Shown piece by piece: positions 12,311 to 63,625 of a DNA stretch of 64,000 nucleotides. The stretch comes from Ilex aquifolium. Taxonomy: Eukaryota; Streptophyta; Magnoliopsida; Aquifoliales; Aquifoliaceae. The DNA lies in the NCBI GenBank assembly GCA_951799425.1, contig OX637398.1, positions 5,265,501-5,329,500 of the forward strand, given 5' to 3'. The notes beneath the pieces were generated by a model that searched no databases, was not told the DNA's origin, and worked only from the letters and a program-made list of their open reading frames with translations. The position numbers and the translations under genes are program-made. Each line of letters opens with the position of its first letter. The first letter of the stretch is position 1.

Positions 12311-15300
12311 TCAAACTTTCTGCTCAATCTTCCCGTTTTCATCAGGTCTGAAAGTGCCATTATTTCCAAGCTTCTCATCACTCTCCTGGGACACATCTTC
12401 TTCCTGAAGCTGCAGAAGTGGAACATCCAGAATTATTGAACCATGTTAAAGGGAAGATTACAAACTAGATGAAAATATTGAAAAAATAACATATTTTTAC
12501 ACAGAGAAGAAGAAACCTCTCAGCTAAATTCTCCATTGTTCCCCAGAATGATTGACAGCCAGAAAAGAGGCAAAGTCACATTTCACAAATCTGCATCGGT
12601 CTAAGTAGTTTCAAAATGATCCGTAGCCATTTCCACTAGTCTCCACCCAAATATTCTTTTCTAATAGCATGTCCTAATTTATTTACATAACATACTATAC
12701 TTTTGCATTATAGTTTTCCATATTATCTTCCTTTTACTTTGAATATGAAGCCCCACTGTCACTACATTCAATCCCACCCATATCTGATGAAGTTATTTAT
12801 CAGGTAAGGATAAATACAACCACTAGTAAGTAGGTAGGTTTAGACACAGAACCAAAACCAAAGAGCTGTCAGATTCTGTCAGGAGACGCATCAAATTAGA
12901 AGGAACTACCCTTGGGAAATTTTAGGGGGTGAGAGGAGGATATAGGCAATTTACAGCAAATATGTTATCCAGTGTATGTGTAATCTTGAGGCAGTAACAC
13001 AAAATTAAAAAAGGCAAGTAATCCTCAACTCCCTTGACATTGATGCTAGCACAAGCATTAGAGAACAATTTTTCTTCATAAGCAACACGAAAACACCCTT
13101 TCCATATAGCGAAGTAATCTTGGACAACATAAGAGTCATACAGTGCTCTTGAAACAAACTCATCCATTATAGCGCAATATCAAGAGCAAAATAAGAAAGT
13201 TCCCAAAAAGCATCCACAAGCCATATGAAATAATTTGCTTCCTTGTGTAAGTGAAATAGGAGGGTATGGACTGCTTCGAAATTTTAAACTACCTGATTGT
13301 CCCCTGTCACTCTTCCACCATGAACCGAGGTTACTTCCCGGATTGTGATGATCTTATCAACATATACAGTTGTCTCCTGAGTACCGCCTGGAGTTTGATC
13401 CAATGACATCGCTGCCTGTTCATCCTCAGGTGCATTTGATTGTGTTGATAACGTACTAAAAACAAATAAAGAAGTGAATGAGCTTCCAGAAATGCAGATT
13501 GACACAAAAAAGAAAAAAAAAAGGGTCTTGACAAAATGCAGTGTCATAACAACATAAATTCAAAATGCATAGTGTCATAACAACAACCCTTAATTCAAAA
13601 CACATGAAGAGTTCAATTGTAAAAGAAGATAAAGCTACCAGGGGGTCATGATCTCTTCTGATTGTGTCACTTCAACATCTTTTTGTTGCCTTCTTTTCTT
13701 ATTACTTTGTGTTTGCTCCAGCAGTGTATCAGCACATCGTTTGAGCCATGACAAAGGAACTGAAAGCGGAGGAGAGGAGATAAGTGAACCTTTCTTAGAA
13801 GACAACTCACGTCTAATGACATCGTCACCTTCTTTGTGACCTGAATTAAATTCAGCCTGGAGCTTCGAAAATCTTTTTGCAGAAGCCTTTCGTTTATCAG
13901 ACTGTGGATCACCTTGTTTCATCTCAGGAGCAACAATACGATCGGGGACAACTTTCAAATCCTCCAATTTATTCAACCTCTCAATCTGAGCAAGAATCTC
14001 TTCTCTGTCTGCACGCAGTAATTCTCTTTGTTTCTCCAATTTCTGCCTTTGCACCTTAAGTTCTTCTATACAATTATTTAGCTCTGCCCACTCTTTGTCC
14101 CTTTTTTCACGATCCAAATTGATCTCTATTCTCTCACTGTCAAGGCTTTTCATTTCCAAGTTAACTTGTTCCATCTCCTTTGCCACTGTTTCCCTAAGGG
14201 ACACAATATGTTGAAGTTCTTTCTTCCTTTCTTCCTCAAAATCTCTCTCTCTATCCCTAAGATGGCCTTCTATTTCTTCACGCCTCTTATCAGTGCAGTT
14301 CTCAAGCTCCCTTTTCTGCATCCCAATATCCAGTAACACATCTGAACGTTCTTTCTGAATCTTGCTGAACCACTCGGAACGCTCACGCTCCATTTCGCTC
14401 ATCAAGGCTTCCCGGTCACGAGAAAGTGACTCGACATCATGTTTATATTGATCCCGCATTGCATCCTTCTCCAATTTCAGACTATCACGCTCATCTTTCA
14501 GAAACTTAGAAATTGCTAGCCTTTCCTCAGCAACACGCTCCGCTTCCTTTTGTAGCTCTTCTCTCTTTTCATCAATCAACTCCCACTCAGTTTCAAACTT
14601 GGCCTTCTCTGCTTTCAACTTATCTGCCTCAATTTCAAGTTCCAGGTTTTGGGCTCTAATCATATCAATTTCTTCTTTAAGTCTCTTTTCTAAAACCATT
14701 AATTCTTTTGTTTCTTTTCTCATGTCCTTTATTTTCTCTTCTGCATGATCAATTTCTTTCTTTTTGTTTTCCAGTACATCCAAAGATTTTTGAACGTCAA
14801 TCTTCATGTTGAGGATCTCTTCTTTTTCTGTCAGCAAAAGGGTTTTCTTCACCTCCACGTCATTTTCTGCAGCAGCAAGAGTTCTCTCTTTCCCCTCAAG
14901 TAAATCCGATCTCTCCATTAAATCCTTCTCCTTGTCTGCCAATGTGTTTGATTGATTCTCCAACTCATGCTCTTTCTCCAATATTAAGTCCTCTCTCTGA
15001 CTAAGATCCACTTCCCTCAACTCCCAAGCCCTCCTCCTGTTCTCAATTTCCTCTTCCACCAATTTGCGCTTAATTTCCAATTGTGCTTCAAATTCAGACT
15101 CCCTAATTTTCAAAGAAGCTTCATGATTAGCCATTACTTGCTGAATTCTATTCTGCATAATTCATCAAGAAGCAGGATTAGAAGAGAATCATACAAATAA
15201 TAAGAAAAACCTGAGATATTTGTATATTTGCAATTATCACAAATTACTGATGCAATGCAAGGACACATTACGCACAACTGGGATTTAGCATAAAAGAAAC

Positions 15301-15481
15301 TAATAATGAAAATGACTCACAGACTCCTTGCTTGCAAGTTTCTCCTGTTGAATAAGCAGTCCTTCCTCTTTCTTTCTCAGCTCACATTCCCTTTTGATAA
15401 CAGCCTGGCAAGCAATCAAAATAAAACTGATATAAATCAATTCAGAAATTCACAGTTAATAAGTATTTCAAGGAAAAAATG

Positions 15482-15524
<43 letters not shown>

Positions 15525-17495
15525 CCTCCTCTCTTGCTGATAATGAAGTGGCCTCCAGCTCCAGATTTGTTTTTATCTCATTTATGGCTCTAAATTCTTT
15601 CTCAATGTTTGCTTTTGATGCCTCCAACTCCTTCTCAAGCTGATCTAATTCCTGAGATCTATTGAAAATGTGTTCCTCCCTCTGATTTAGCAATGCTTGC
15701 CCATCTAGTAATCTTTCTTGTGATTGCTGCAGAGTTTTTTGCCTTTCAGATAAAGATTGCCTCTCAAGAAGAATCTCTTTCTCTTTTGCATCACAACTAT
15801 GAGATCACCAAAACAAAGTTCTCAGGATCACATCAGGCCTACTGCATTTCCATATGGAGAATTATACGAAAGAAAACCAAATCAACAAATGATCAAATAG
15901 AGAAAATCAAGAATAAGGGAATGTGTAGATACTTTGACCATGGAATTGATCAACCTTCAGCTCTAACACAAAGCATCAAAAGTTCTCAAATACCTTAAAT
16001 GCAGCTAAATCAGATTCAAGTTTCATTTTCTATTACACATAGTTTTCCTCTTAGTCGGGCCCACAACATGGTGGCACGAGTAGCGCAACAGACAGAACAA
16101 AGTGACGAATACATGTATACTAACTAGCGGGCATATGATGATAAAAGTCAAAAGCACTCAGGATGATTTAATGAAGTCAACACAATTACAAAACACTCTG
16201 CGTTGAGTGATTTGATTTAGCAAAGAGATTTAGTAAGACATACTCAGACTTGAATGAAATTATCTTCCTCCTAAGGTCATCTTCACGGGCTTCAACTTCA
16301 TGGAGCTTCCTTTCAGCAGCACGGTGGCAGCGGCTTGCTTCTGCTTCCAAAGATTCAGCTGCGTGCATCTTTGCTTCAGCCTCGCTGAATTTTTTCTGAG
16401 CATCCTCCATCATACTTCGCGTTTCGGCCAATTTACTCTCTGCTGCGACCTTTGCCTCGGCACATTCTGCCCGCATCTCATGCAATGCCTTCTCAATCTA
16501 CAGAAAAATTCTAAATGAGATACAAATATAAAACAAAACACATAGGAACCAACATGAATTCCAGTAAGCATACATTGGCAACACATTCTTTCTCGATTCC
16601 AAGAGCCTTCTTCAAATTATCTTCCCGTTTCTTTGCTTCAGCTAAAGCAGAAGAGTGTGCAGCCTGCTCGCGCTTATACATTAACTCGGCGGATTCAGCA
16701 GCGGCCTTGAGTTGCTCATGCTTGGAATCCCAATCTTTTCTTTCCAAAATCAGAAGGCCCATGTGATGTTGATGTTCATAGATCTACATGAAATTAAAAC
16801 CTCAGAGGCACAAACTAAGATATGAAAGCGTATCCACAAAAAAAAAAAAAAACATAAATCTTATCCAAATGAGGAAAGCTGAAGCCTTGATCCAGTAAAG
16901 CATTATACGAGCATCGCAATCACTTGCCAAAAGGATTTTATGGTAGACTATTCATATAATAAACAAAACCCATTTCCCGCTCATTTTATCTTCTTCAATT
17001 ATAAAATAACAAAAGAAAAACTACCAATGAGACCATATCTACCATAAATGAATGATACCATGCACAATTCAAGATTGACCAAAAGTTCTTCTTTTTTCAA
17101 TCTTTGTTTTTCATAACAACCGAGACAACTAAATGGCTTATTGGACGCTGCTATACCTCGTTTTCAGATCAAAAGAATAATAAGCATCTCTGATTATAAC
17201 ATATTAGACAACCAATTGGCAAGGTACACATATGTGCGTATAGATCAAGTCCAAAGATCAAGAAACATAAATTACATACGAGTATATGAATTCGGCTTAC
17301 CTCAGCTTCGATTTTGGCAATATAAGCGATGAGAGCAGCTTTGTCCCTCCGTTTGATGGACTCTTCGTCAAACCCTGCATCTCGAAGCCGCTTCCACATG
17401 GTTTCATCACTGAAAGGAGTTCTCAAAACCCTACCAGAGCCAAGCGTTCTTGGACTCTGAATCATCGCTAGTCGCTCCGATTGAGGAGTCCCCAT
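12311..17495 (-). CDS. CRWN4: CROWDED NUCLEI 4-like nuclear lamina coiled-coil protein (NMCP family)
   Basis: CRWN/NMCP proteins line the inner nuclear membrane of plants and set nuclear size and heterochromatin organisation. Eight coding exons are read: 17495-17301, 16783-16574, 16497-16244, 15796-15526, 15404-15321, 15152-13639, 13455-13293 and 12409-12311 (TGA). All are GT..AG and in frame, giving 929 residues. The N-terminus carries the family signature MWKRLRDAGFDEESIKRRD followed by KAALIAYIAKIEAE (about 33-65). Residues ~66-780 are almost continuous Glu/Lys/Arg-rich heptads. Basic clusters (SDKRKASAKRF, SNKKRRQQ) near 760 and 830 could be nuclear localisation signals. The tail SLDQTPGG and the lack of the C-terminal box of CRWN1-3 point to the CRWN4 branch, whose Arabidopsis member is slightly longer (about 1,010). 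The 504-codon sixth exon is typical. The first Met fits the family. Confidence 0.94.
15486..15519. repeat. (GA)n microsatellite beside a CRWN4 splice donor
   Basis: A run of about 16 GA units lies in the intron just 7 bases past the 5' splice site of CRWN4 exon 4 (exon end 15526). On the coding strand it is a CT tract directly after the donor. Confidence 0.85.
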
Positions 17496-17525
17496 TCCTT
17501 CAACTTGAAATCAAGAAACCCTAGA

Positions 17526-22574: not shown

Positions 22575-23218
22575 TCTATATAATAAAGTAACTTACAATT
22601 CAAATCTCAAAAGATAAACAAAATGACTTTTGTTATTCGCGGTTGAAATCGCTTTAAATTTTACTTTAAAGTTAATCTAACGGTTAATATTAACACCCTA
22701 AATTTAATAGGAAAAATAAGCCCCTAAGGGTGTGTTTGGAGTGACTTTTTAAAAGTACTTCTAAAAATTATTTCTCATAAGTACTTTAAAAAAAAAAAAT
22801 AGTGTTTGAAACCGCCCTACCACTACCTCTACCACCACCACCACTACCTCTACTATCACCGTCACCGCCATCGCCGCCACAACCACCACCACCACCGCCG
22901 TCGCCACCACCCCCTACCACCGCCGCCCTCGCCGCCACCGCCCTCGCCCTCGCCGCCACCACCACTGTCGCCGTCACCGCCATCGTCGCCGCCGCCGCGG
23001 CCACCACCATCACCACCACCGCCACCACCACAGTCATTACCACCCACCACAACCATCACCGTCTCCTACCACCACCACCTCTTACCCCCACTACAACTGA
23101 TGCTTAAATTCATTTATCTCTCTTATATGTTTGTGATTTGATTTTAGATATGAATACAATATGTTTATTGTTTATCATTTTTTATTACTCTGTACCTTCA
23201 GGCACAGGCAATAACTAG
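22575..23218 (+). mobile_element. Helitron-like non-autonomous element A
   Basis: It has the expected Helitron ends. It starts TCTATATAATAAAG after an A and ends CTAG, the CTRR form, followed by T. A hairpin (TGTACCTTCAGGCACA at 23191-23206, loop TC, one mismatch) lies 8 bases before the CTAG. There are no terminal inverted repeats. The middle is a CCACCG-type microsatellite that gives open frames of Pro/His/Thr in every register, so those are not genes. The next element starts at the very next base. Confidence 0.72.
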
Positions 23219-23750
23219 TCTATATAATAAAGTAGCTTACAATTCAAATCTCAAAAGATAAACAAAATGACTTTTGCTATTCGCGGTTGAAATCGCTTTA
23301 AATTTTATTTTAAAGTTAATCTAACGGCTAATATTAACACCTTAAATTTAATAGAAAAAATTGGCCCCTAAGGGTGTGTTTGGAGTGATTTTTTAAAAGT
23401 ACTTTTAGAAATTATTTTTTATAAGTATTTTAAAAAAAATAATAGTGTTTGAAACTTCCTCACCACTACCTCTACCCTTACCACCCCCACAACCACCACC
23501 GTCGTCGTTGCCGCCACGGCCGCCACCACCACACCACCGTCACCGCCGCCGACTCCTTCGCCGCCATCCACCGACGCCACGGTCATTGTAACCCACCACC
23601 ACCACTGCCGCCCACTATCTCTCACCCCCACTACAAATCGATGCTTAAATTCATTTATCTCTTCTTTATGTTTGTGATTTGATTTTAGATATGAATACAA
23701 ATATGTTTATTATTTATTACACCGTATCTTCAGACACAGACAATAACTAT
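23219..23750 (+). mobile_element. Helitron-like non-autonomous element B, tandem with A
   Basis: The first ~170 bases match element A at over 90 percent by eye, starting TCTATATAATAAAG directly after A's CTAG. The end reads CTAT instead of CTAG. The hairpin is conserved with paired changes: GTATCTTCAGACAC, where A has a C-G stem pair and B has T-A. The inner CCACC microsatellite is shorter. The two units therefore form a head-to-tail tandem. Confidence 0.68.
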
Positions 23751-28065: not shown

Positions 28066-29380
28066 ATGGGTTTTGATGATATTTGTAACACAGGCCTTGT
28101 TTTAGGTTTAGGTTTGTCATCAAAGGTAAAAAGTTTCCCTTTGAAGACAGATGATCCGAAGAAACCGTGTTTAAAGGTTGATCAGATGGCAAAGACTGCC
28201 TTAAGTTTTGAGCCATCACTGACTTTGAGTCTCTCTGGCGAGATTTATGATAAGGTAGCTAAGAAGATTGATGCGAATAAGGCTTGTAATGGTCAGTCTG
28301 CCGATTTATATCGTCAAGACAGTGCTGCTTCATCGTTCTCTAATGTCAGTGTAAAGAGGGAGAGAGAGCTGGGCAGTGAAGAGGGAGAGATAGAGAGAAA
28401 TTTCTCAAGAGTAAGTGATGAAGATGATGATGGTCCTAATGGAAGGAAGAAACTTAGACTCACCAAAGCACAATCTGCCCTTCTTGAAGAAAGCTTCAAA
28501 CAACACAGCACTCTTAATCCTGTAAATCTCTCTCTCTCTCTCTCCCTCTCCCTCTCTGAATTCATCTATGTTCTTTGTTTTGATGGATAGCCGTTTATTT
28601 TCTTCAAAAATAAAAACTAAAAAATCGATTGTTCTTGAATTACCAGAAACAAAAGCAAGAGTTGGCCAGGGAGCTAAAGCTAAGGCCACGACAAGTTGAA
28701 GTTTGGTTCCAGAACAGGAGAGCCAGGTTCTTACCCTCAACTCATTAACACCGCCAAAGAATTAATTAAAAATCTCGTAAAAAAATAATTTTAATAAAAA
28801 AGGATTTGTGGTTCAAAATTTTAAGCAGAAGTGCTAATTGGCATACCTAATTAGTTTTGGATTGTATTTTGAGTTTGTCTGTAGGAAAGGGTTGAAATCG
28901 CATAAATAGTTTTTTTGCACGTAAATAAAACTACTAGTATCTCACCATTTCTAAATTATTGATGGGAGTCGCTTGCACTGAGTCCTTCTTCTTTGTTTTG
29001 GGGGGTTTTGTTTGTGTACCAGTTTCTTGTCAAAGGTGTTTTTCTTATTTAACCTTTTTTTTTTTTTTTATGTCAATCTAAATATGTTTGTGCTGTTAAT
29101 TATTTATAGGACAAAGCTGAAGCAAACCGAAGTGGACTGTGAGTTCTTGAAGAAATGCTGTGAGACTCTAACAGATGAGAACAGAAGATTACAGAAGGAG
29201 CTACAAGAACTGAAAGCACTAAAACTGGCCCAACCCTTATACATGCAGCTGCCGGCGGCGACCCTCACCATGTGTCCGTCGTGCGAAAGGATCGGAGAAA
29301 ATAACTCTAAGAGCCCATTTACCATGGCTCCAAAACCTCACTTCTACAATCCCTTCACTAATCCATCAGCTGCTTGTTGA
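28066..29380 (+). CDS. HAT22: HD-Zip class II transcription factor, HAT22/HAT9-like
   Basis: A nuclear DNA-binding protein; class II HD-Zip factors are mostly repressors in auxin, shade or cytokinin responses. There are three exons (28066-28521, 28647-28726, 29110-29380), all GT..AG, giving 268 residues, close to Arabidopsis HAT22 (278). The N-terminus [17 protein letters not shown] matches that clade, and LxLxL motifs at 11-17 and 52-56 (LTLSL) fit EAR repression motifs. The homeodomain spans about 126-185 and contains [16 protein letters not shown] leucine zipper follows at once ([16 protein letters not shown] onward, to ~220), then the class II redox motif CPSCE at 234-238 and the ending [12 protein letters not shown]. 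Both introns interrupt the homeodomain, as is usual in class II. The first intron starts with a CT microsatellite 5 bases after the donor. The 5' leader is CT-rich. Confidence 0.96.
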
Positions 29381-37096: not shown

Positions 37097-37105
37097 TAAA
37101 GTCAA

Positions 37106-37187
37106 GGGAAATTTGGAGGCCGGTCCCCCTAGACAGACTTGTTTGGAGATAAGTCCTGCAAGGAAACTTATTTGGTTTGAAGTCCAC
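37106..37187 (+). repeat. Left terminal inverted repeat of the MULE
   Basis: Starts GGGAAATTTGGAGG and runs through GGTCCCCCTAGACAGACTTG to GAAGTCCAC. Weaker match to the right end continues to about 37245 (ACGGTGTTAA). Confidence 0.9.
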
Positions 37188-37411
37188 TTTTTGCGATTTT
37201 TACCATTATACCCTTAATTATTAAAAAAACCTAAACGGTGTTAAAGTTGCTGTTTGTACAGTAGACGAAGTAACGCTTGGTTTTCGAGAAGGAACACGAA
37301 AACTCCCCCTCCATTCCAGGCAAAAAATCCGGCAAAAATCCATCACAATCTATATCATCTTCCTTCTTCAAAATTCAAAAGCTGATATTAACTAATATAT
37401 GTTGGTTTCAA

Positions 37412-37594
37412 ACCGCCATTATCCAATCGGCATTACCCAATTCGAACCAGCTTCAAACATTCAAAGCTTCCAATCGGCATTACCCAAACTTTTATAAACT
37501 GCCATTATCCAAATCTTTCACTTCAAGACCGAAAATTGGATTTATTCAGCAAGATCCATTGTTGACGTTAAAGTGGGTATCGGCATTATCCAAC
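37412..37594 (+). repeat. Five copies of a GCATTAYCCAA-type motif in the Ulp1-gene leader
   Basis: CGCCATTATCCAA, CGGCATTACCCAA (twice), TGCCATTATCCAA and CGGCATTATCCAA occur between 37413 and 37593 with irregular spacing, in what is probably the 5' untranslated exon. Possible binding sites or remnants of a tandem duplication. Confidence 0.6.
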
Positions 37595-38397
37595 TCTTTA
37601 CAAAACCTTTGGTGTTCTTATTAAAAAAGAGAGGTATGTTTCTTTACATTGGAATTTGATGTTTGCTTTTGGGTTTTATATCAACATTAAAATTGAGATT
37701 TCTTTGTCACTATATAACAGATTTGGGTATTTTTTTTTATTTTTTATTTTTTGGTTGGTGTTATACATTCGAATTTGATTTGGGTATTTGGAATTTTTTA
37801 TGTTACTGTGTGCGAAATTTTCAAAGTATATTGATTTTAATGTCGATATCATGAGGTTTATTGTTTTTCAAAGTTTATTGATTAGTAATTCGATGTTACA
37901 TGACACAATACAGACTTGGAGGGATGAAACTGTACATATTAATGTTGCTTAATGAATGTGTTATATAATAGGATGTGTAATTTTTGTGTTGGTTTCTTCT
38001 TTGTTCATGAAATTTGGAAACCATTGGATCAAGAGTACTGATTTAAGTGTCAGTCACTTGTAGTTAATTGATGTGTTACTAGTGCAAATCTTGGAAGCTT
38101 TGAAATGTGGCAATCACATATTTAATGTGTAGTTTTTGAAAAATGTTGATGATACTGTGGATGTTAATGTGAATTGATGTTACTGTGAATGTGTTTGTGA
38201 TCGCAACCCTATGATTTTTGTTGGAGAATTATATGTATATGTTACATCATATATCTCTCAAGTTTTTTTTTTGCTAGTGTAAGAGAAAATTGGTGTTACT
38301 TGTGTGTTACTATTTTAAATGCTTGCAATCTTCAGTTTGAAATCTTCAAATCAATAGTTTTCCATTTAAATTGGATTCAGTTAATAGATTAAGATTA

Positions 38398-38479
38398 GGG
38401 AAATTTGGAGGCCGGTCCCCCTACACGGACTTGTTTGGTGATAAGTCCTGCAAGGAAACTTATTTGGTTTGAAGTCCAC
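38398..38479 (+). repeat. Internal direct copy of the left MULE terminus
   Basis: 82 bases that differ from the left terminal repeat at only about 3 positions, in the same orientation, inside the 5' leader intron of the Ulp1 gene. It is much closer to the left end than the right end is. The following ~60 bases resemble sequence near 37990-38045, so the duplicated block may be larger and rearranged. Confidence 0.85.
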
Positions 38480-38818
38480 TGGTTGCTTTCTTCGTTGTTC
38501 ATGAAATTCTAAAAACATTGGTTGAAGAGTTGATTGAAACTTTTCAGGTTACTGTGTGATTTCATAATTTCACATGTATGGATTTGATTTGGTACTGTGG
38601 GTATTACTAAATGATTAGTGTTACTATGAACATGTTACTGATCAACCCCTTTGTGTTTTTTTAAAATTTTAATCCATCTAATTTGGTGTTACTCTTTATT
38701 CTACTTTTGAATAAAGATTTTTTGGTTAACTGTTGTATATCCATTAAGTGTAGTGAATTGGTGTAATGTTAATGTATTATACTCAGTTATTTATATGTAA
38801 CTGTCATATTATAGGTTG

Positions 38819-41800
38819 ATGGCTCCAAAAACATCCTCATTTCACCAATTCAGGTCCAACTTCCTGCCATTGGTGAGGGTTATTAGTGAACTAAACATCA
38901 AAGATGTTCACGAAGAACAATTGAGGAGAACACCATTTTGGTATTTGTATCAGGCAATATCTCAATATGAAGTTGATAAGGAATGGTTCAAGAAGAATGA
39001 CAAAATAATTGTGGACATCATTAATACATTTGATGTTGAAACATCAAGATTTAGAATTGGTGGGAAAAATTTAAAGATACGGAAGAGTGATGTATCCCTC
39101 ATTTTTGGTATAGAAAATGGTGTGGAACCAATTTTGTCCCCCCAAAGTGCAAAGAAAATGTCAGATTTTGTAAGGAGGAGATTCAATAACACAAAAAGAT
39201 TGAATGCTCCAATTATCAAAAGCAAAATGGAGGATGCTGCCATGAGTGATGCAAAGGATGATTGTGAAGACTTTGCTAGGTTATTCTCATTATATGTCTT
39301 AGTGACATTGCTGATTACAAATATGGGTCAATCAATTGGGTGGGGGTATGTTTCATATATTGAGAATTTAGATGAGATCAAAAGATATGACTGGTGTCAA
39401 GCAACAATTGATGCAATCATTAATTCTATACGGTTGAAGATTGACACACCAAGTGCAGTAACCGGTTGTGTAGTACTGTTACCTGTAAGTTTTTCATTGT
39501 TATTTTTTTTAAGTGCTTTTTAAAATTCATAAACATTATGTGTTCAGAATAATGTGACAAAACTTAATTTGCAGTATTTGATATGTGAACACACATATCT
39601 TGTTATGGCCGACAACGCGGATGCTTTCCCCCGTTGGATGAAATGGGATTTAAGAAAGCTCTGGATGTATCTCGGACAAAACAAACTCTCCGACATCACA
39701 CGTGATCAGGTATTAATAAAAATTTGGATTATCTTAGTTCGATTAATTTTGACAATTTGTTAATTGCATGAGAGTGTTATTTTTTGTGTTCCTATCATAA
39801 ATTGTTCTAAATGTTACTATGTATGTTTCTATGTAAATTATGTTACTGTGCATGTTACTGTGTAACTCATTGCATGGGATTGTCAACTTGATGTTACTAT
39901 GGCTGATGTTATTTTGAATGTATGTTACTGTGAATGTTAATGCAGTAAAATGCATGTTACTTTAGATGTTACTGTGTAATGCACAGGCATTTAATTAGAT
40001 TAAATGTGAACAATTATTGAATACATTTTTAATATGTTACTAATAATGTTGTCAGGTTGTCCGAAAGAGACTTAAGAAAACAAATGCTGAGAAAATATTA
40101 TGGAAAGGAAATGGGGAAAATGGCAAGGATGTACAGCAGATTGTGGAGGTTCCACAACCAAAAACTGTTCCTAGCAATACTGGTTTAAATTCAGAATTAG
40201 AACATGTAGGTGGTGAACCTAATGTGGCTGATGATGATACTCTTGTGGTGAATGAAGATGTTCATGAATTTGATGATGCAGTTTCGGTTCCAACAAACGA
40301 TGATCCTGTCCAACAGGAGAATGATAACAAGCAACCATTTGATGCGTTTGTTGATGTGGTCATCCGAGAATCAGCATGTTTGGAACAAGATGAAGTGGAA
40401 CCTCGAGAGGAAAAATCACAACAGCCTTCCCATGACAATGAAGGTGAGGCTGGGTTGATTGCTGAGAATGTGGTTCAAAAATTAACCATCCAAATGTTGA
40501 CTGTTGAGAACGAAGCACTTAGAACAGTCATCAAGAATCTTGGGGGCAACCAAAGGGAGGATGAATTGAAAGAGATTGAAGAATATTCCATGAAACTAGT
40601 TGACAGGGAAAACAAAATTTCAGAATTGAGGGTTTTGGTTGATCTCTTGGAGAGAAACAAAGAAACACAAGATGAACAAATTAAAACACTAAAATCTAGG
40701 GTTTACGAATTAGAGGAAGAGAACCATTCCCTACATGATACTGTAGCTGATATGGCTGTTCATGCCGTTACTCAAAGGTTCACAGGGACTCCACCAAAAC
40801 CTCAGCCCACCGAAGCTGCTGAACAGACATCAATGGTGAGGAAAATCAAAAGGAAAGAAAGAAAAAGAAAGATAGATGACAAATTTGAGTATATGGTGAA
40901 AAAACAGGGAGGAAAGAAAAAAATGAAACAAGTTGAAATCCAGGACCAACCCGACAAAGTTAAAGGGAAGGAGAAGATATCAGAAAGTTACATTGATGTT
41001 GATAATTTGGATATTAAAATCCCAAGTGAAAAGCCAGAGAATAAAAGAGTTGAAGCTAGACGATGGAAGGCATGCAAGAAATTATCCCCAAATGATTACG
41101 CCAAATTGGTTCAAATGTTTGAGGCCGAGGGAAAAACGTAAGTAACTAAATTCCCCATTATGAAACATTTTATAAATATTACTGTTTATTCTCTATGTTA
41201 TTAACATTGTCAGTTTTAAATTAAAAGGGCAACCTTATGGTGTGGAAGAAAGTATGGAAATACTCTTGATGTTGATGATGTGTTGAAATTCATGGTCGGG
41301 GAAGAGCTGCACAACAATGTAATGTACCATGCCTCTTTTCAATTTAAACAAAATTAGGAATACTTTAATATTTGTTAATTCATAGAATCGTGTTATCACA
41401 CAGGTGATTGATTGTTGGGCTGAAATTCTGATGGAGGAAGCAAATTGCAAATGTTTCTTTTTCAACAGTCTTTGCTGGGTGAGTTTGTTTTGATTTTATG
41501 TTTGAATTCTTTATTGAAGGAATTTTGAATTGAAATACGAGTTTAGTAACATACAGTTTACTATAGTAACATACATGTTACTACAGTAACATACATGTTA
41601 CTACAGTAACATTAACGCAGTGAAATTCAGGTTACTAGGAATAAAACTATTATACCATTGATGTGATTTGTGTTACTATAGTAATATGTAAGAAAACAAT
41701 ATGTGCTGGGTGATATTGGTTACTGGATTAGCGAATCAGACACAGTGAGTATAGTAACATGCATGTTACTATACAACATAACAGACAGTAACATTTATGT

Positions 41801-42689
41801 TACTTAGAATTGAATGAAATCCCCCATGTTAATATAGTAACATGAATGTTACTGTATAAAAAACATATGTGATATTGTTATATATTAACTTTGATATATA
41901 TTGACATTGTTATATATATAAAATTTATGGGTTACCCTTGATTACCATGTAGTCATTCGTAACGATTGACGAACAAGAACCATCACGGCAAGTTGAGATA
42001 GACAACAACCTTAACATGGGGAAATTTCTTCCATTCCTAGTGTTTCCAATGAATTCAGATGCACAGGGCACCGAACCCTCGCCATTCCACTGGACCTTGC
42101 TTGTACTAGATACAGAAGCAGGGGAATGGATCCATTTCAACTCTTTGAAACCGCGAAGTGGAATACTAGACAAGTTTTTTGAGGATGCAAAAATATTGGT
42201 AAGTTATTAAAATCTGAACAACCCATATTGTTTGATATATTTTCGTTGTACAAAATTAACAGCAATGTATTGTGGCAGAAAGACTATGTGGAGTCGGCAT
42301 CAAAAGAAGGACAAAGGAAGGCATTGAAGCCAAAGGATGACATTGTTGTCAGTACACAAGACATCAAATGTCCAATATCTTCATTTGAGAAATGCCCTCA
42401 ACAACGAGCTGACACGTATGTAAATAATAAAAATAGTGTACATTTAATGTCTCGGATGTTAATATCATTAACAAAAAATCATGAATGCAGGGTCGACTGC
42501 GGATTGTACGTGTGTTACTTAATGCAGCAGCTTGCTCGTGGACAGCACATAGAAGATAAATTGAAACCACCGCAACTTAATGCTCTACGGATCGATATGG
42601 TGTCTACCTTCATAAACCATAGGAATGCATGGAGTGTTGAAGACTACAAGACAAGATCAAGATTGAGAAAGAGATACCGTGACAAATAG
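38819..42689 (+). CDS. Ulp1/C48-type protease-domain protein of the MULE
   Basis: Eight coding exons (38819-39484, 39575-39709, 40056-41137, 41228-41318, 41404-41478, 41953-42198, 42279-42415, 42491-42689) join in frame at GT..AG sites to 876 residues with no premature stop. The N-terminal ~265 residues, with FRIGGKNLKIRKSDVSLIFGI, resemble the DUF1985/plant-mobile-type domain often fused to Ulp1 in plant transposons (family assignment inferred). An acidic region follows, then a coiled coil (~405-510) and a basic stretch KRKERKRKIDDK (a possible nuclear signal). The C-terminal cysteine protease domain has FHWTLLVLD (His ~729), WIHFNSL (~746), PQQRADTVDCG (Gln ~806, Cys ~814). Asn stands where SUMO proteases usually have Asp. 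A 5' leader exon ending at 37633 probably splices to 38815, 4 bases before the ATG. Its target is unknown, either SUMO-like processing or a role in transposition. Confidence 0.86.
41545..41870. repeat. Dense GTAAC/GTTAC motif cluster
   Basis: The intron between exons 5 and 6 of the Ulp1 gene is built largely of GTAACATACATGTTACTA-like words in both orientations. The same GTAACAT/ATGTTAC words are frequent in other noncoding parts of the element (37940-38660, 39770-40050, 42940-43090, 44290-44370, 45540-45650) and sparse outside it. Confidence 0.75.
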
Positions 42690-43229
42690 ACAGTTCTGTT
42701 GTGGGTGGTAGCTATTCAATGTAGGCTGATTACAGGATTGGTTAGACTAATTGCAAGATAGGTTATAAAATTGGTTGTAATTGGTTGGTGGTTGATATTA
42801 TCCCTATAAATTGGTTGTAATTGTTGGGTGTTTGATATTTGGTGAGAAATTTATTGTAAATGTTGACAGGTTGATATTTGATTTTAATGGAATGTTTGCC
42901 GAACAAAGGAAACTCTGTCCACATTCTTATTGAAATAATCACCCAAACAGTAACATGTGTATTAAATTATTTAAAAATTATCCAAAGTAACAATCACACC
43001 AAATACTTGTTTAAAAGTATAATTATTTAATTGCCACATGATCATTAACTAGTAACATTGTAGTAACATTAACAGTAACATGAAAGCAAATATTGAACAT
43101 GTGATGATCACATTACACTATTAAAAAATCATACTGTATAAACCATGATAATTCCAATGTCTTACATGATAAACTCAAACAACATGGAAAATAACGTAAC
43201 ATCTTATTCCTAAAAAAACATACGGAATA

Positions 43230-45480
43230 CTACAATGGCTCGTTACATGTCTTCTTATTATGACTACCTAAACGGCCACAACGGCCACAATGAATTTTTC
43301 TAACAAGCTCACCCCTAGACCTAAATCTACGCTTCCTTGGACGACCTGGTTGTTTTTTTGACAATGGTGGCAACATATCAACTTCAACCGCTGAAAAGTC
43401 AGGACGACCGAGTGTTGGAATTGGGTGTATAGGCTCAGAATAACACAATTTGTAAGTAGTAACCTGATAAAAGTAATCAACAAACTCATTGATGTTTCTT
43501 CCACTCTTTTGAATTGCAGCAACAGCATGGGCACATGGTAAGCCATTGATCTGCCATTGGTGGCATGAGCACGTGCAACTCTTAATGTCTACAGTCACTG
43601 AAGGATGTGAATTAACCTCGTAAACATGACTTGATGACACCCTAACAAACCAGGAACGACACTCCGTGAAAGCAGCTTGAAGTTTGGTTTCAATATTTGG
43701 ACAATTAATGCCCATCCACTGTGACGATGCATTCAAGCGGCACCCCATTTGGTTCATGATCTGCCCCCTTATTGTGTCAATCATACTTGTGACAGGTAGG
43801 TGACGTGACTTTGTGATCCAAGCATTGAATGACTCCGCCGCATTTGAAGACATCTCCCCATAACGTCACCCCTTAAAAAAGGCATTCGTCCATTTCTCAA
43901 ACGGAAGGTTTTCCAGGAACTTATCAGCAATGGCTCCTCCTTCACTTCGAAACGCATCAAGCTTTTCATTGAAAAATGCATCTGTTGGAGCATAAGCACA
44001 CAATGTAAACAAAAAAACCATACGCTCGCGAAACGCATGGGTAAAACGACCCCCACTAAACTTATCTCTCAGATTTGCTTTTAGGTGTTGTAGACAGAAA
44101 GAATGGTGCACCGTTGGGAACACCTTTGGCATTGCTTCCATTAACCCGACGTTGCGATCAGACATAATGGTTAGTTCCCTAGTATTATCAACAATCTCAG
44201 ATAATTGCTCTAAAAACCAACGCCAATTACACTCATTCTCTGAATCAACAACCGCAAAAGCCAAGGGGAACAAACCTGCAATTCATATACCAACACAACA
44301 GTAACATCAAAAAAAAGTAACATACAATAAAAAATTAAAATTTAACAGTAACATAAAATCAGTAACACCAAAATAAACCAACAAAATATTCACCTTGGTT
44401 GCCATCTTTTGCAGTTGCAGACAAAATAATTCCTTTATACCTACCCTTTAAAAATGTACCATCAACAAACAATATGGGTCGACAGTAGTTAAATCCATGT
44501 ATACATGCCTTAAATGACATGAACAACCTACTAAACCGTTGTGAGTGTGAATCACCTTCCAACACAAAATGACTACCTGGATTGCTTTCATTAGCAGCAT
44601 GTACATACCACCGTAATTGCTGGTATGACAATGAATGGTCCCCAAACAGCATACCCCTTGCTTTTTCAACACTCATCCAAGCTTGATCATACGATATGGT
44701 CAGCCCATAATCTGTATGAAACATACTTTTCACATCAACTGGTCGTGTGTCAGGTTTTTGTCTGACGTTATCAACAATAAGACCTCCAACCAAATTAGAA
44801 GTCAATCTTTTGTTCTTTGTAGTACGTGCAGCCACACCACATGTGTGCTGATTGTTTAGTTTCTTAATGTAAAACCATCCATTTATCCGTTGGAGAGTAG
44901 CAACAACAAACCATTCACACCCAGCAGAATATTTCATGGCACATTCAGCCTTCACCCTTGTTTTTTCATTCTTCACATAATTAAACTGAAAACCAACCTC
45001 TATTGCAAATTTGCATAAAGCATTCCGAAACTCAACTACTCCTCCCTCAAACTTCTGACCAACCTCTACTATTCCATTCGACCATCCATCAGTCAACAAA
45101 ACCTTCTCATTATGAGAACAAAAACGAGGGAGAAGATCAACCTCGCAACCAACTGGGTCAACAATAAATTCTGAACTTTCCACCACTTCCCCACCCTCTA
45201 CATCATGAACCACATTCCCTTTAACATCAACAGTAACTTCAACAAAATTCAACTGTACAGATCGTGCAATTAAAAACATGTTTCTCACATCATGATCATT
45301 TTGCAAAACACAATTCGGATGTCCAGGAATAGCGTACGACAATACAACACAATTAGAACTCAACCCATTCCAATTGTCACGGCAACCAACTAACACATCA
45401 TCATATGTGGAATTCATTGTAATTCTTAGCACAACAGTCTCAGAACAATACTTGCAACAAACCAAAATGTTATCCTCCAT
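43230..45480 (-). CDS. MURA-type Mutator transposase, one in-frame stop
   Basis: Two coding exons, 45480-44394 and 44275-43230, join in frame to 711 codons including the terminal TAG. The protein has a PB1-like N-terminus (~1-85), a Cys/His DNA-binding region (~165-220, ending NNQHTCG), and a DDE catalytic core: VDGTFLKGRYKG (D~340), MSDRN (D~402), SSNAAESFN (E~510). A SWIM zinc finger CTCSCHQWQINGLPCAHA (~595-612) and a C-terminal zinc knuckle CGRCGRLGSHNKKTC follow. Codon 499 is TGA (43868-43866), between FFKG and RYGEMSSN, so the normal product would lack the catalytic Glu and SWIM finger; a single C-to-T change from CGA would explain it. Everything else is open. An AG lies directly before the ATG, so a 5' leader exon (~45890-46000) is likely. 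Confidence 0.92.
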
Positions 45481-46226
45481 CTGTTAAAACCAAGAAAACC
45501 AATATAACCGTAAAATTAAAATATGAAAATAATTCTAATTTCATTATAACAGAACAGTAACATGAGAAATAGAACTTAAAAAATAATTTAAAAATAAAAA
45601 ACGGTTGTTGAACATCACACTACATTCAATGCATAGTAACATTGAATTTCAGCAAGTACAAAGTAAAAACGAAAATTAATTAATAATAATTCCGGTAAAT
45701 AACTTTCAAATGTATCTTCCTGTGAGAAATATCGAAATTTCGGCAATAAACTTTCATTATACATAAATTGTGAAAGCATCAACGTTAATCACAATACGTA
45801 AACTAATAAAACTGAAATGAAAATACATCAGAAAAATCGGAACCAGTAGAATAGACAGCATTCATAGGAAAAATCGAAATCTTACTGGTATCCCTTCGAA
45901 ACTCCTGCTGGTATCACCTTCGAATCTCCTACAGCTTGAACTCCGGCGAAAATCCTACTGCAATGCTTTCGAAACTCCTGCAAAACACAATATGAAGTAT
46001 CCGTGTGATATGGAGAAGAAGACCAGTGGTAATTTCCTGGACAGATAAAAAACGTTAATTGTGATTCAACGATTTTTATGTGATTCAGAATTTGAATTTG
46101 AATTTAAATGCATAATGAAATCTTATAAATCTGTATTTGAATCAGGTTTTCACAACTCATGCCGTGATTCAAGCCTTATGGAAACTGAAAAATTCAGTTT
46201 CCATAAAAACCGCTGTTTCTGTTGAT

Positions 46227-46246
46227 ATATCTATATATATATATCC

Positions 46247-46277
<31 letters not shown>
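46227..46277. repeat. (TA)n(GA)n microsatellite near the right MULE end
   Basis: Two TA runs separated by TCC, followed by GAGAGAGAGAGA. About 200 bases inside the right terminus. Confidence 0.8.
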
Positions 46278-46278
<1 letters not shown>

Positions 46279-46398
46279 AATATATCTAAAATTAAAACAA
46301 CAATGACGGTACTGTTTCTGACCATAATTAACACCGTTAAGGGTGTTTTAGGGATTAAAAATAAAAGTGGACTTAACTCATTACACATAATTTTAAAA

Positions 46399-46480
46399 AC
46401 GGACTTAGCCCCTTATAAGTTTCCTTGCCGGACTTAAGTCCAAACAAGTCCATCTAGGGGGACTCACATCCAATTTTCAC
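46399..46480 (-). repeat. Right terminal inverted repeat of the MULE
   Basis: Read inward on the minus strand it starts GTGAAAATTGGATG, then GTCCCCCTAGATGGACTTG and GCAAGGAAACTTATAAGG. An extra ~35 bp segment relative to the left side, ending in TTAAGTCCACTTTT, lies just inside it. Confidence 0.88.
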
Positions 46481-46489
46481 TAAAGTCAA

Positions 46490-46780: not shown

Positions 46781-46781
46781 T

Positions 46782-46962
46782 AAGGGTGTTCACCCTACCC
46801 TACGGGTAAGAAATATAGTCTTTCGTCTTCCTACCCGATACTTTGTGAAGGAATTTTTTCTTGACCTACCCTACCCGATCAGGTGTGGTATTCCTACTCG
46901 ACTTCCTACCCGATTAATCGGGTAAGAAGTTGGGTAAACATTTTTATAGCTATTGTAGGTAC
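46782..46962 (-). mobile_element. Truncated end of a hAT element (same family as 51310-53004)
   Basis: About 180 bases align in inverse orientation with the right end of the complete hAT element. The terminus reads TAAGGGTGTTCA against TAGGGGTGTTCA, and ATATAGTCTT, CCCGATACTTTG, CCGATCAGGTGT and TAATCGGGTA are shared in order. Similarity stops after GTAAACATTTTTATAGCTATT. No second terminus or target duplication is present, so this is a relic. Confidence 0.75.
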
Positions 46963-51309: not shown

Positions 51310-53004
51310 TAGGGGTGTTCAAATTTTCGATTGGCCGCAAGTTCCTACCCTACCCTACCCTACCCTACCCTACTAAACGGTTAGCCGCAAAAATCGGGTA
51401 GGAATGCGGAAGAATTTTTTGTCTTCCGATTAAAATCGGGTAGGAATGCGGAATAACCATTCATTTCCGCATTCCTACCCTACCCTACCCGCATTAATTA
51501 ATTAAATTATATATATATATATAAACCAAAAAAAACCCTAATAGAACATATGTGTCCCAACTCCAAGAGCGCATCTGTGTCCCAACTCCAAGAGCGCCTC
51601 CATCGTTCCAGACTTCCAGTCCCTACTGCCCGATTCCAACCCAGGTACTCTCTCTCTCTCTCTCAGCGATCTGTTTCAGATGCTCTAACATCTCTATCAG
51701 CTATTCTAAGTTGTAACATTCAGAATTTTTTAGCTTTTAAAATCCTTGCAGCTTCTTGCCTTCTTCTATATTATGTTTTGGTTTGTTAGATCCCATCTTC
51801 TTCTATATTACATGTATTAGACTGACTTAAAACCGAGAGTCACGGGAAGTGGTGGCCATCTGCTTGCACGAGCTTTTGATTGCCTCCATTAGGAACTTCT
51901 TTATGTGTGAAATCTTTCTTCTATAATTCTCCATGAGTTTCAGTCGTATTATAATTCCCTTGCATATTCAGGTACAAGCATCATTGAACCTTTGTGGGCA
52001 TGGATTCTTGAAAGGCCTTTGTGGCTATTGATTTATTAGTTTTTTTTTCTATTTTAGAGGGTTTTATGTGTTTTTTTTTTAATATTTGTTTTCTTTAATT
52101 AATTTCGTTTTTATGATTGAGAGAGAGTCAGTCAGTATGGTTGTGATTTGCCTTTGTCCCTGTAAGTTTCTAAATGTTTGTTAGTCACAGATGATGTAGA
52201 TTTTCAATTATATAATCTTCAGATGTTTATTTTTCTCTGGATGAGGGACGCCAGAGAGAGATGAGGTGAAGATGGTGTGATCTCTATGCCTTGTTTGTTC
52301 TTGCTCTGTTGTCACAAGTGTGATCTCTTTGCTTTGGCCTTTTGGGCAGTGTAGTCCACATCCAAGCTATTAAAAAAATATTGATCTGACGAGGTTTTGC
52401 TTCTCTCGTGTTAGTAGTAATATATGCAGCAGAGAACTTTGATATCCCTTGGCTACCTATCTGCTGGTAGTGTCACCAGTAGGAAGTCTGGAGAGAAGAA
52501 AGATACAAGCTGAGGAAATAAAGACAACTCCAGCAAAACAAGCAAGATCCAACCCAGTAGTTATGATTTTAATGTATTCGTGTTTGTGTAACAATTATGG
52601 TGGATTGTGTTTATGTAACAATTATGGTGAATTGTATTTGTGTAATAATTATGGTAGATTGTATTTGTAACAATTATGGTGGATTTATGACTAAAACAAT
52701 TATGGTGGACTGATGGCTAAAACAATTATAATTGTTTTTTTAATTGTTTTAGATTTTAGTGTTATTGATTTATTGTGTTGTTAAATTGATACATGTTATT
52801 TAATTAAATTGTTAAAATGATTCAAAAATTAATAGCTACAAAAGTGTTTAGCCGACTTCCTACCCGATTATTCGGGTAGGAATGCGGGTAGGAATACTAC
52901 ACCTGATCGGGTAGGGTAGGGTAAGAAAAAAATTTTCCGCAAAGTATCGGGTAGGAATGCGGAAGACTATATTTCCTACCCGTCGGGTAGGGTGAACACC
53001 CCTA
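51310..53004. mobile_element. Non-autonomous hAT element with perfect ends and 8 bp duplication
   Basis: The 12 bp ends TAGGGGTGTTCA (51310-51321) and TGAACACCCCTA (52993-53004) are perfect inverted repeats, and GTAAGACA (51302-51309 and 53005-53012) is an exact 8 bp target duplication, as hAT transposases make. Subterminal regions carry many CCTACCC / GGGTAGG and TCGGGTAGG words, comparable to the subterminal transposase sites of Ac-type elements. No hAT transposase is encoded. Inside are a duplicated GTCCCAACTCCAAGAGCGC unit near 51551-51598, a CT microsatellite and an ATTATGG minisatellite. The interior may be captured host sequence, but its source is not recognised. Confidence 0.9.
52568..52725 (+). 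repeat. Minisatellite, AACAATTATGGTGGAT units
   Basis: At least six imperfect units containing ACAATTATGGTGGATT, spaced ~24-30 bases and joined by TGTGTTTATGT- or TGACTAAA-type linkers, inside the hAT element. Short translated repeats over it are by-products. Confidence 0.75.
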
Positions 53005-53769: not shown

Positions 53770-55018
53770 TTAGATTCCTGCCAAGCACTCCGGTGGAGTG
53801 ACTGGGTATCGTGATTTGTCGGTGCAGTAGTCGTAGATCATGTGGTTCAGGCGAACCCACCGGTATCTTCTAGCTTCAACGGGGTTAAGTTGTTGGTATG
53901 CAACTCCTTCCCACCAGTTATTAGGGTTTGAGGCACATGTTGCTGGTCCAGGCCTGGGACATCCTTCAATGTCAAAATCCTTGTAGTATGCATAAAAGGG
54001 AGCTTTGCTCCAATCTATCTTCTCGAGTCCACCTCTTGTAGCCCAGTCATCGGCTTCCCACAATGTGGAGTAGACTCCCATTGGTTGGAACTTGGGGAAT
54101 GGAATTCCTTTTGCTTCATTGTTCTTGTAAACCCTGATTGGCACATCATCCACATAGAAACTACACCACAAACATAAAAAAAATAATATATACCATTAGG
54201 CTCGTATGTTGATAAGACTTTATTGAGTTGAATTGAATTTATTTTGTAACAGTGATGATAACACGAAAAGGGAAAATATATCATTAGTAATGAATGGTGA
54301 TTGAAATAGTGAACCAACTTACACAATATGACGATGGTTCCAAAGAATTGTATAAGTGTGGAACTCTGCTGCAGGATCAAACCAAAGGTTGATCCTTTGT
54401 TCTCTATCGCCCTTCCCGTGGGCATAGATATTGGTTTGAACAGTGTAAGGTTGTCCTGTACGATTTCCCAAAAACTCAAAATCTATCTCATCACGTATTG
54501 CATCTGTGTTCGAATTCATCTGCCACAAAATTTGAAGCAAATAAACAAAAATCCAATAATTTAAAGGATAATAAACTACTCTCTATGCTCTTGAAACTCA
54601 AGCATGTGAATAGAAAAATAAAACTCACATAAAAGGCGGTAACAGTGCCGGCAGAGTCCCCAGGAACGAGTTTGATCTTCATGCTAACACGTCCAAACAA
54701 GTACTGGTTCTTGGAGGCAAACCCACATCCTAAAAAGCAAATACAAGGTTATCCTATAATCATGATCCAATTGAATTTCATTGATCCATAATAAACATAA
54801 CAAGGGACCCCACGAAAAGTTGTACCTGAACTTTGGTCTAGCACAAGTTGAATGGCCCTCCCTCCGTCGATTTGCCGGATATGGTAGTCGGACCAGGTAA
54901 TCCGAAAGTCCTGCAGAAACGTGGCCGGTCGCGCCTGGACAGAGAACGAAAGGGCCAGGACATATAAGAAAAGAGAGACAATGGCGTTTCTCATGGATGG
55001 GTATGTCAATGTGGCCAT
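53770..55018 (-). CDS. XTH: Xyloglucan endotransglucosylase/hydrolase, XTH6/XTH7-like
   Basis: A glycoside hydrolase family 16 enzyme that cuts and rejoins xyloglucan chains in the cell wall. Four exons (55018-54826, 54729-54629, 54519-54323, 54160-53770) join in frame to 293 residues, the usual XTH length. Residues 1 to ~29 form a secretion signal ending near FSVQA. The catalytic motif DEIDFEFLG (108-116) carries the nucleophile Glu109 and acid/base Glu113, and the expected N-glycosylation site NRT follows at 117. Downstream, [39 protein letters not shown] and the Cys-containing C-terminal extension ([29 protein letters not shown]) are all present. The overall sequence is closest to the XTH6/7 type as I recall it. 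An active transglucosylase rather than a pure hydrolase is expected, because the hydrolase-specific loop extension is not seen. Confidence 0.95.
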
Positions 55019-55090
55019 AATTGTGCTACAGAGTGGTATTATCTGTAGATGTTTGTGTACATGTGTTTGAAGAAAAGAGAAGTCATGGCC

Positions 55091-63029: not shown

Positions 63030-63625
63030 ATGCACCTTAGTTCATGTGTATTTTTTTTTGGAAAGTGATATTATTTTCAAATTATATTTATGCATTAAAT
63101 ATCTCCTAGTTTTATGGGAGAACTTTAATATTCCGTTTATTTTAAGATATATCATTTTATTTGAATTTCAAAATTTGTTAATTATTTTTTTATATAATTA
63201 TTATTTTTATATAATTTGAAATATAAAATTATTTACATTATAACAAAAACGTAACAAATTCATTAAGTAGTAGTGTAACAAAGACAGTGTAACAATACAC
63301 TGTAACAAAAACAGTGTTCAGTGATTTTGTGCATGTGGTAACAAATTCAAAACAGAGATGGACTGTTTTGAATGAAATTATATTAAAATATATATTTGAC
63401 AAAATGTAATAGTACAATATTTTGTATAAATGTCTTGTTACACTGTTATTATTACACTGTTATGGAGTTCAGATATTAATATAATTTGAAAACAAAACCA
63501 CTTTCCAAAAAAAATACGCATGAATCAAGCAAGGACATAAAAATACGGAATATTAAAATTTTTCCATAAAACTAGGAGATGTTTAATGCATCACTTTTCA
63601 AAAAAAATACATAGATCAAAGGAGG
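63030..63625. mobile_element. Nested foldback (MITE-like) element
   Basis: The left arm (GTGTATTTTTTTTTGGAAAG, CATTAAATATCTCCTAGTTT, TAATATTCCG) is mirrored by CGGAATATTAAAA, AAACTAGGAGATGTTTAATG and CTTTTCAAAAAAAATACATAG at 63546-63615. A second mirror lies just inside (AATATAATTTGAAAAC, CCACTTTCCAAAAAAAATAC). The centre holds AGTGTAACAA / TTGTTACACT words in both orientations. Noncoding; family and target duplication undetermined. Confidence 0.6.

Follow-up and report, generated by a model that had tools for sequence, protein, structure and literature searches.

The stretch of Ilex aquifolium DNA analysed here, called the window throughout (64 kb; positions 5265501-5329500 of contig 8 in an 800-Mb genome of 103 contigs), contains a whole Mutator-like element (MULE) at 37106-46480. 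A perfect 9-bp target-site duplication, TAAAGTCAA, exactly abuts both ends of the element (37097-37105 on the left and 46481-46489 on the right, neither assigned a strand). Two convergent genes lie inside, an eight-exon gene with a Ulp1-type (C48) protease domain on the plus strand and a two-exon mudrA-type transposase gene on the minus strand. A first-pass annotation of this DNA had described a complete Ulp1-carrying element with both ends, an exact duplication and two convergent multi-exon genes, and this description stands. Because the same 9-mer is found twice elsewhere in the window, the duplication is argued from its position and not from its rarity. The outermost 90 bp form terminal inverted repeats (TIRs), an outer left one at 37106-37195 (+) and a right one at 46391-46480 (-), which pair at 67 of 90 positions; a weaker inverted similarity (70%) extends over approximately 150 bp. 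The duplication, the TIRs and a mudrA-type transposase with MULE, DBD_Tnp_Mut and SWIM domains together make this a MULE. Its ends are neither the non-TIR ends of Kaonashi elements (KI-MULEs) nor the degenerate (non-)TIR ends given for VANDAL elements in part of PMC10398659. Scans of the 64-kb window for tRNA genes and Rfam families gave no match.

The Ulp1 gene (38819-42689, +) encodes 876 residues plus a stop in eight coding exons, every intron being GT-AG, and its frame is as intact as had been proposed. Exon 1 (38819-39484) begins with the ATG and encodes the N-terminal domain, and exon 2 (39575-39709) is followed by exon 3 (40056-41137), which holds the faster-evolving middle part of the protein. 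Downstream of exons 4 (41228-41318) and 5 (41404-41478), exon 6 (41953-42198) supplies a catalytic-type His, together with an Asn at the position of the Asp of Ulp1, and, after exon 7 (42279-42415), exon 8 (42491-42689) supplies a catalytic-type Cys within the motif VDCG before the stop; all eight are on the plus strand. The one Pfam match above cut-off is Peptidase_C48 (residues 707-834; E = 1.6e-6; 28.6 bits against a cut-off of 20.7), which places the element among the Ulp1-carrying MULEs. The N-terminal region encoded by exon 1 resembles the plant mobile domain (PMD) below that model's cut-off (E = 5.5e-5; 22.9 bits; cut-off 34.9). A PDB sequence search gave a single match, to the middle part (E = 0.19), and an AlphaFold model of exon 1 alone, with a mean predicted local distance difference test score of 36.7, was left unused.

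The transposase gene (45480-43230, -) has two coding exons, the first (44394-45480, -) carrying DBD_Tnp_Mut (E = 1.7e-11) and the second (43230-44275, -) the MULE domain (E = 3.5e-13) and SWIM (E = 3.2e-10). Judging from splice-like sites in the sequence, both genes appear to be preceded by an intron in the 5'-untranslated region (5'-UTR). On the Ulp1 side, the leader at 37196-38397 (+) presumably comprises a promoter, a 5'-UTR exon and the start of the 5'-UTR intron, with a donor-like site after 37633; on the transposase side, the leader with its presumed intron occupies 45481-46390 (-). The earlier statement that each gene starts near its own terminal repeat is thus true only loosely, the ATGs of the Ulp1 and transposase genes lying 1.7 kb and 1.0 kb from the ends. 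The transposase of the window copy does have the single in-frame stop reported for it, at 43866-43868 (-).

A genome search with the transposase as query gave 413 candidates, of which 40 matches were scored, and 20 of the 39 copies outside the window were examined. Both ends were located in 18 of these 20, so that the copies share the ends of the element and not just its interior, as the first-pass annotation had proposed to check; no left end was found in the examined stretches of L026 and L027. Fifteen of the 18 have a perfect 9-bp duplication, counting that of L018, which sits in a poly-T tract and is uninformative; the duplications are therefore more than a chance match. The window element and seven sisters (L011-L017) form a young subfamily of eight copies with pairwise identities of 99.73-99.98%, and each sister has a perfect 9-bp duplication of a different 9-mer. 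Searches with the left end and the leader found only these eight at 99-100% identity, the next being at most 91% (best 40 candidates scored in each search). Both genes are open in five of the eight (L012-L016). In L011 and L017 the transposase is open and the Ulp1 frame is broken by one stop, which leaves six copies, that of the window among them, with an intact Ulp1 frame. The element is thus complete and recently multiplied. The young copies carry 33 private substitutions, and C>T changes account for 20 of these (5 in CG, 7 in CHG and 8 in CHH contexts), which is compatible with methylation after insertion. L030 and copies on contig 18 near 17472355, 17481417 and 17490479 are older members that apparently follow one another head to tail every 9,062 bp, separated by the 7-bp spacer TTAAGTA.

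The first-pass annotation had taken the contrast between an open Ulp1 frame and a stopped transposase to suggest either recent insertion or retention for a function. Both are borne out, on other grounds. The stop is private to the window copy, being a sense codon in all seven near-identical sisters, whose transposases are open over 710 codons, and therefore has no bearing on why the Ulp1 frame stays open; we rejected retention as a deduction from that contrast.

The noncoding DNA of the element is dense in one word, AGTAACAT, which was discovered by a scan of all 6- to 9-mers on either strand. The element's 4611 noncoding bp hold 32 copies of it and its 4764 coding bp none, and one more lies in the remaining 54.6 kb of the window. 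The total of 33 compares with a mean of 3.26 and a maximum of 7 in 100 shuffles of the window, the p-values being descriptive only because the word was picked by scanning. The words are spread over six compartments: the Ulp1 leader together with the 5'-UTR intron (3, of which 2 in the leader at 37196-38397), Ulp1 intron 2 (39710-40055, +; 8, all reading ATGTTACT on the sense strand of the gene), Ulp1 intron 5 (41479-41952, +; 12, including five face-to-face pairs whose words start 10 bp apart), the region between the convergent genes (42690-43229, no strand; 4), the transposase intron (44276-44393, -; 3) and the transposase leader (2). No word lies in the five introns of 75-90 bp, or within the first 694 bp and the last 838 bp of the element.

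This distribution bears on whether the words are binding sites of the transposase, like the subterminal repeats of other DNA transposons, with the Ulp1 gene as an unrelated accessory. In favour of this, further elements whose ends are related also carry the word, and these would depend on transposase sites to move. However, MULE transposases bind terminal repeats, and here the outermost 694 and 838 bp are free of the word while the densest arrays, in introns 2 and 5, lie mid-element; we consider transposase sites an unlikely explanation.

The array extends to the relatives of the element. The 18 copies with both ends have 23-35 noncoding words each and none in coding DNA, counts that are not independent because the copies share ancestry. 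Three relatives at 75-84% identity hold 29 (L031), 22 (L032, with 4 more in adjoining DNA) and 25 (L034) words, and interrupted or truncated stretches hold 7 (L033), 8 (L035) and 16 (L036). One word of L031 lies in exon 3, and the relatives' other words are noncoding as far as the alignments place them; two words of L034 fall at transposase-aligned positions in a global alignment, where the exon is mostly missing and BLAST aligns this part to the DNA between the genes. When words made up of A and T only, or of two letters, are dropped, AGTAACAT is the commonest listed 8-mer in L031, L032 and L034. The words are also conserved: in each of 10 comparisons their per-base divergence stays below that of the remaining noncoding DNA, for instance 0.042 versus 0.165 for L031 and 0.036 versus 0.168 for L032. 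Pooled over 15 related sequences, and as a description only, the offset between face-to-face words within 64 bp is exactly 10 bp in 28 of 51 pairs, and same-direction offsets are commonest at 12, 32 and 20 bp (20, 18 and 13 of 184). A literature search for the word AGTAACAT returned only unrelated titles among the matches listed.

Words of this kind might instead be sites for host factors (promoter, enhancer or splicing signals) or the outcome of neutral tandem-repeat expansion, in either case unlinked to the Ulp1 protein. Their orientation fits T-rich introns, since the 16 words that lie neither in intron 5 nor between the genes all read ATGTTACT in the sense direction of their own gene, and units are gained and lost, with intron 5 of L015 having one 20-bp unit more, and that of L016 one fewer, than the other six young copies. 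Against this stand the rank of the word among the 8-mers of all three relatives, its roughly fourfold better conservation than other noncoding DNA relative to L031 and L032, and the finding, on the listed parts of contigs 1 and 2, of no paired form near any of 13 sister-family copies whose exon 1 is 42-58% identical (below). An origin of the words independent of the Ulp1 protein thus appears improbable to us.

Across the 800-Mb genome, the face-to-face pair AGTAACATNNATGTTACT is present at 276 places and the reversed pattern at none. Its proximity to the gene was assessed on contigs 1 and 2, save the end of contig 2 (50 places listed), with exon 1 positions taken from the best 150 of 891 candidates. 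Among copies of exon 1 of the Ulp1 gene at 74-100% identity, 9 of 10 have a pair no more than 8 kb away, as against 0 of 2 at 68-69% and 0 of 13 at 42-58% (one of the 13 being just past the listed part of contig 2). The word also occurs beyond the full copies of the family. At three of three sampled pair sites away from known full copies (L037-L039), there is a right end 69-76% identical to that of the element, with 6-8 words in 1.2 kb; these three are 87-91% alike in their main mutual matches and may be one family. The only protein trace among them is a marginal match of 54 residues to the Ulp1 protein in L039 (28%, E = 0.006). They were seen over approximately 1 kb inside the end, and the window element likewise has no coding exon that near its right end. 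Same-direction pairs of AGTAACAT 2-27 bp apart number 8,345 genome-wide against 277 for a control, and many of those listed are grouped in short clusters in which certain spacings recur. This genome thus holds a large population of repeats that bear the word.

The Ulp1 gene itself is under purifying selection. Its ratio of nonsynonymous to synonymous substitution rates (dN/dS) is 0.37, 0.44 and 0.36 relative to L031, L032 and L034, and that of the transposase is 0.27-0.42, values which are inflated by neutral decay because these relatives carry stops. By part, the same three comparisons give 0.26-0.36 for the N-terminal region, 0.47-0.51 for the middle (residues 276-640) and 0.31-0.54 for the C48 domain, the middle being the highest of the three parts relative to L031 and L034 and not relative to L032. 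Ten closer copies give 0.41-0.68 for the whole Ulp1 gene and 0.12-0.32 for the transposase; in the seven of these ten that were split by domain, the N-terminal part is at 0.17-0.46 and the middle at 0.53-0.81. The values relative to L031, L032 and L034, a comparison of the kind suggested at the outset, support retention for a function. It also bears on the idea that the Ulp1 gene is a host fragment captured in the manner of Pack-MULEs and carried as a functionless passenger. Plant transposons do often carry Ulp1 domains, and a paper on grapevine treats these as transduplications in the part that deals with them (PMC2528002). A passenger is nevertheless hard to reconcile with a whole-gene dN/dS of 0.36-0.44, with the lower values of the N-terminal part and those of the C48 domain, or with a frame open in six of the eight young copies, and we regard this explanation as very improbable.

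In Arabidopsis, the VANC proteins of VANDAL elements bind short noncoding words of their own family and cause loss of silencing marks there, according to sections of PMC5735166 and PMC10398659, and VANC21 and VANC6 use different words (PMC5735166, in part). We read the Ulp1 gene of the holly element as probably a VANC-like, word-targeting anti-silencing factor, because a second gene under purifying selection, with a middle part that evolves faster in most comparisons, is accompanied by a dense, conserved noncoding word that follows both the family and elements with related ends. Under this reading, the transposase excises and inserts the element, as the ends, duplications and recent copies show. 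The Ulp1-domain protein would recognise AGTAACAT, often as face-to-face pairs approximately one helical turn apart, and the words scattered over introns, leaders and the intergenic region, and kept out of exons, would be its targets. By analogy with VANC21 and VANC6, we infer that binding would remove or exclude silencing marks, demethylation included, both within the element's family and on further elements with related ends and the same word. A role of the protease domain in this is speculative; it may consist in the removal of SUMO from chromatin proteins by the C48 domain.

Several observations weigh against this reading, in addition to the choice of the word by scanning and the shared ancestry of the copies. 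The gene cannot be filed as a VANC, because DUF1985 stays below its cut-off of 35.1 bits in exon 1 (E = 0.14 and 12.6 bits for the window copy; E = 0.022 and 15.2 bits for L031) and because the element has retained TIRs, a feature largely lost from VANDALs. In four of four lineages the C48 domain has Asn in place of the Asp of Ulp1, and protease activity is therefore unproven; the His and Cys are kept in the window copy, and the Cys is altered in L032. The C48 part shows dN/dS values of 0.40-1.16, on few changes, relative to seven close copies. Conservation of the words exceeds that of other noncoding DNA by a small gap in two comparisons (0.060 versus 0.076 for L021 and 0.052 versus 0.074 for L030), and tandem-repeat turnover could add to it. 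One copy at 93% identity, C1:59505684, lacks any pair up to a distance of 8 kb. Finally, that L037-L039 are non-autonomous is no more than a possibility, as approximately 1 kb of each was seen.

The left end of the young subfamily has an unusual structure. A second, fossil left terminal repeat lies 1.3 kb inside the element, at approximately 38398-38487 (+) within the presumed 5'-UTR intron, and is 84/90 identical to the outer left end. The leader between the two is only approximately 61% similar to that of the 11 older copies compared, and the body of these copies meets that of the window element between element positions 1357 and 1439, which coincides with the inner repeat or follows it closely. 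In L031 and L032, on the other hand, the leader is 84% and 82% identical to that of the window copy and continues into the gene with no inner repeat in between. Most simply, the young subfamily may be read as a chimera, in which an L031-like end and leader were stacked on the old left end of another copy that had lost its original leader. A nested intact insertion was discarded as the origin of the inner end, there being no second right end among the repeats of the window and leader continuity being seen in the relatives, and L033 was rejected as leader donor since it is broken off by other DNA that carries another repeated word. That DNA, at 5815-9363 of L033 behind the truncated family copy, has 12 scattered AGTGACAA words and is perhaps another element with a word of its own.

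A further word may belong to a sister family, a lead that takes in the AGTGTAACA words of a short inverted-repeat element in the window (below) and pairs of CAGTGTAACA. These pairs, 1-30 bp apart, are found 447 times genome-wide against 2 for a control. Of the 13 exon 1 matches of sister families on contigs 1 and 2, two, both 44% identical, have such a pair no more than 4 kb away, as do 0 of 10 copies of the window element's family. Random placement of the pairs gives at least 2 in 12 of 20,000 trials, a figure that ignores the clustering of transposons. Near four further sister matches in the listed part of contig 3 there were no such pairs, the nearest being 364 kb away; a CAGTGTAACA sister system is a lead, not a result. 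It does allow a broader, tentative picture, somewhat doubtful as a whole, of several parallel anti-silencing systems built on one protein family, at work in elements that keep their TIRs and without a recognisable DUF1985. Each would use a private word (AGTAACAT here, CAGTGTAACA in at least one sister family at 44% exon 1 identity) and would protect its own autonomous copies together with numerous further elements, often short, that bear the word, and one would have driven the multiplication of a three-TIR chimera, a type of element regarded as dead on arrival. The null result on contig 3, and the fact that non-autonomy of L037-L039 is no more than a possibility, slightly lower our confidence in it.

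Other repeats were seen alongside. At 63090-63591 the window contains an inverted-repeat element of approximately 0.5 kb (53-nt ends, 89% alike) that carries another word, AGTGTAACA, three times, a count reached by 3 of 100 shuffles of the window and weak taken alone. The C48 matches L001-L006, with DUF1985 matches near several of them, represent a multi-copy transposon-like family in which weak DUF1985 and weak C48 matches lie approximately 3 kb apart. The best C48 matches, L001-L008, show no similarity to either protein of the element at E 0.01, and L001 has no AGTAACAT words. Just downstream of the element, 46781-46954 and 52831-53004 form a 174-nt inverted pair, 87% alike, with no obvious flanking duplication, and at 22575-23700 direct duplications (224 nt at 93% and 61 nt at 95%) surround CCACCACC-type repeats. 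Neighbouring host genes in the window include one for a xyloglucan endotransglucosylase/hydrolase (53770-55090, -; XET_C, GH16), one for a homeodomain-leucine zipper protein (28066-29380, +; HALZ match, the homeodomain being presumed) and one for a coiled-coil protein with a long exon lacking a Pfam match (13635-17510, -), which we take to be CRWN/NMCP-like.

Among known systems, MuDR of maize is a MULE with two convergent genes and long, nearly identical terminal repeats. The first-pass annotation had likened the holly element to it, and the convergent layout is indeed shared. The analogy is weak otherwise, since the terminal repeats here are short and 74% alike and the matches of the second gene are to C48 and, below cut-off, to the PMD, the sequence of mudrB not being compared directly; we rejected MuDR as a model. 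VANDAL and Kaonashi elements, with a second gene that has or may have an anti-silencing function, provide the better analogy. VANDAL21 (Hi) and VANDAL6, with VANC21 and VANC6, likewise have arrays of short words in noncoding DNA, and those of VANDAL21 are altered by repeat units, as seen here for the 20-bp units of L015 and L016 (both in sections of PMC5735166). The words differ, YAGTATTAY and AGTTGTCC/AGTTGTAC being given for these Arabidopsis elements and AGTAACAT being that of holly. A C48 domain is present here next to an N-terminal domain that falls short of DUF1985. No counterpart of the third VANDAL gene, vanB, was recognised among frames of at least 110 codons, which besides the two genes comprise just one of 116 codons in the leader and one of 121 antisense to exon 1, no vanB model having been searched.

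In Kaonashi elements, a Ulp1-domain gene faces the mudrA gene, as here (PMC2528002, in part), and their KIU genes are described as Ulp1-carrying VANC genes in part of a 2026 review (PMC13317346); KI-MULEs are non-TIR elements, whereas the holly element has TIRs. Closest in having both TIRs and a Ulp1 gene, in either orientation, are MULEs of melon and grapevine, for which the part of PMC2528002 covering them describes no word array. Tomato MULEs with a solo additional TIR share the extra terminal repeat. A second copy was found for one of 12 distinct tomato elements, the one element with similarity to a transposase was degenerate and the authors speak of "death on birth" (PMC3310237, in part), in contrast to the eight copies, five with both genes open, seen here.

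The Arabidopsis VANDALs are the case in which sequence-specific anti-silencing encoded by a transposon has been worked out (sections of PMC5735166 and PMC10398659). A TIR-bearing, Ulp1-type case in another genome, with a defined word and eight near-identical copies, five of them with both genes open, brings several questions within reach of direct tests: by what the word is recognised, what the protease domain contributes, whether loss of TIRs is needed and how protein and word change jointly. Private words, if true, would give a handle on which repeats each system controls. Parts of the system may already be described for other eudicots, and both Ulp1-carrying MULEs with TIRs in either orientation (PMC2528002, in part) and anti-silencing by VANC proteins are known. 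What differs in holly is the combination of these with TIRs, a new word, a domain that fails the DUF1985 cut-off and a three-TIR chimera that has been successful.

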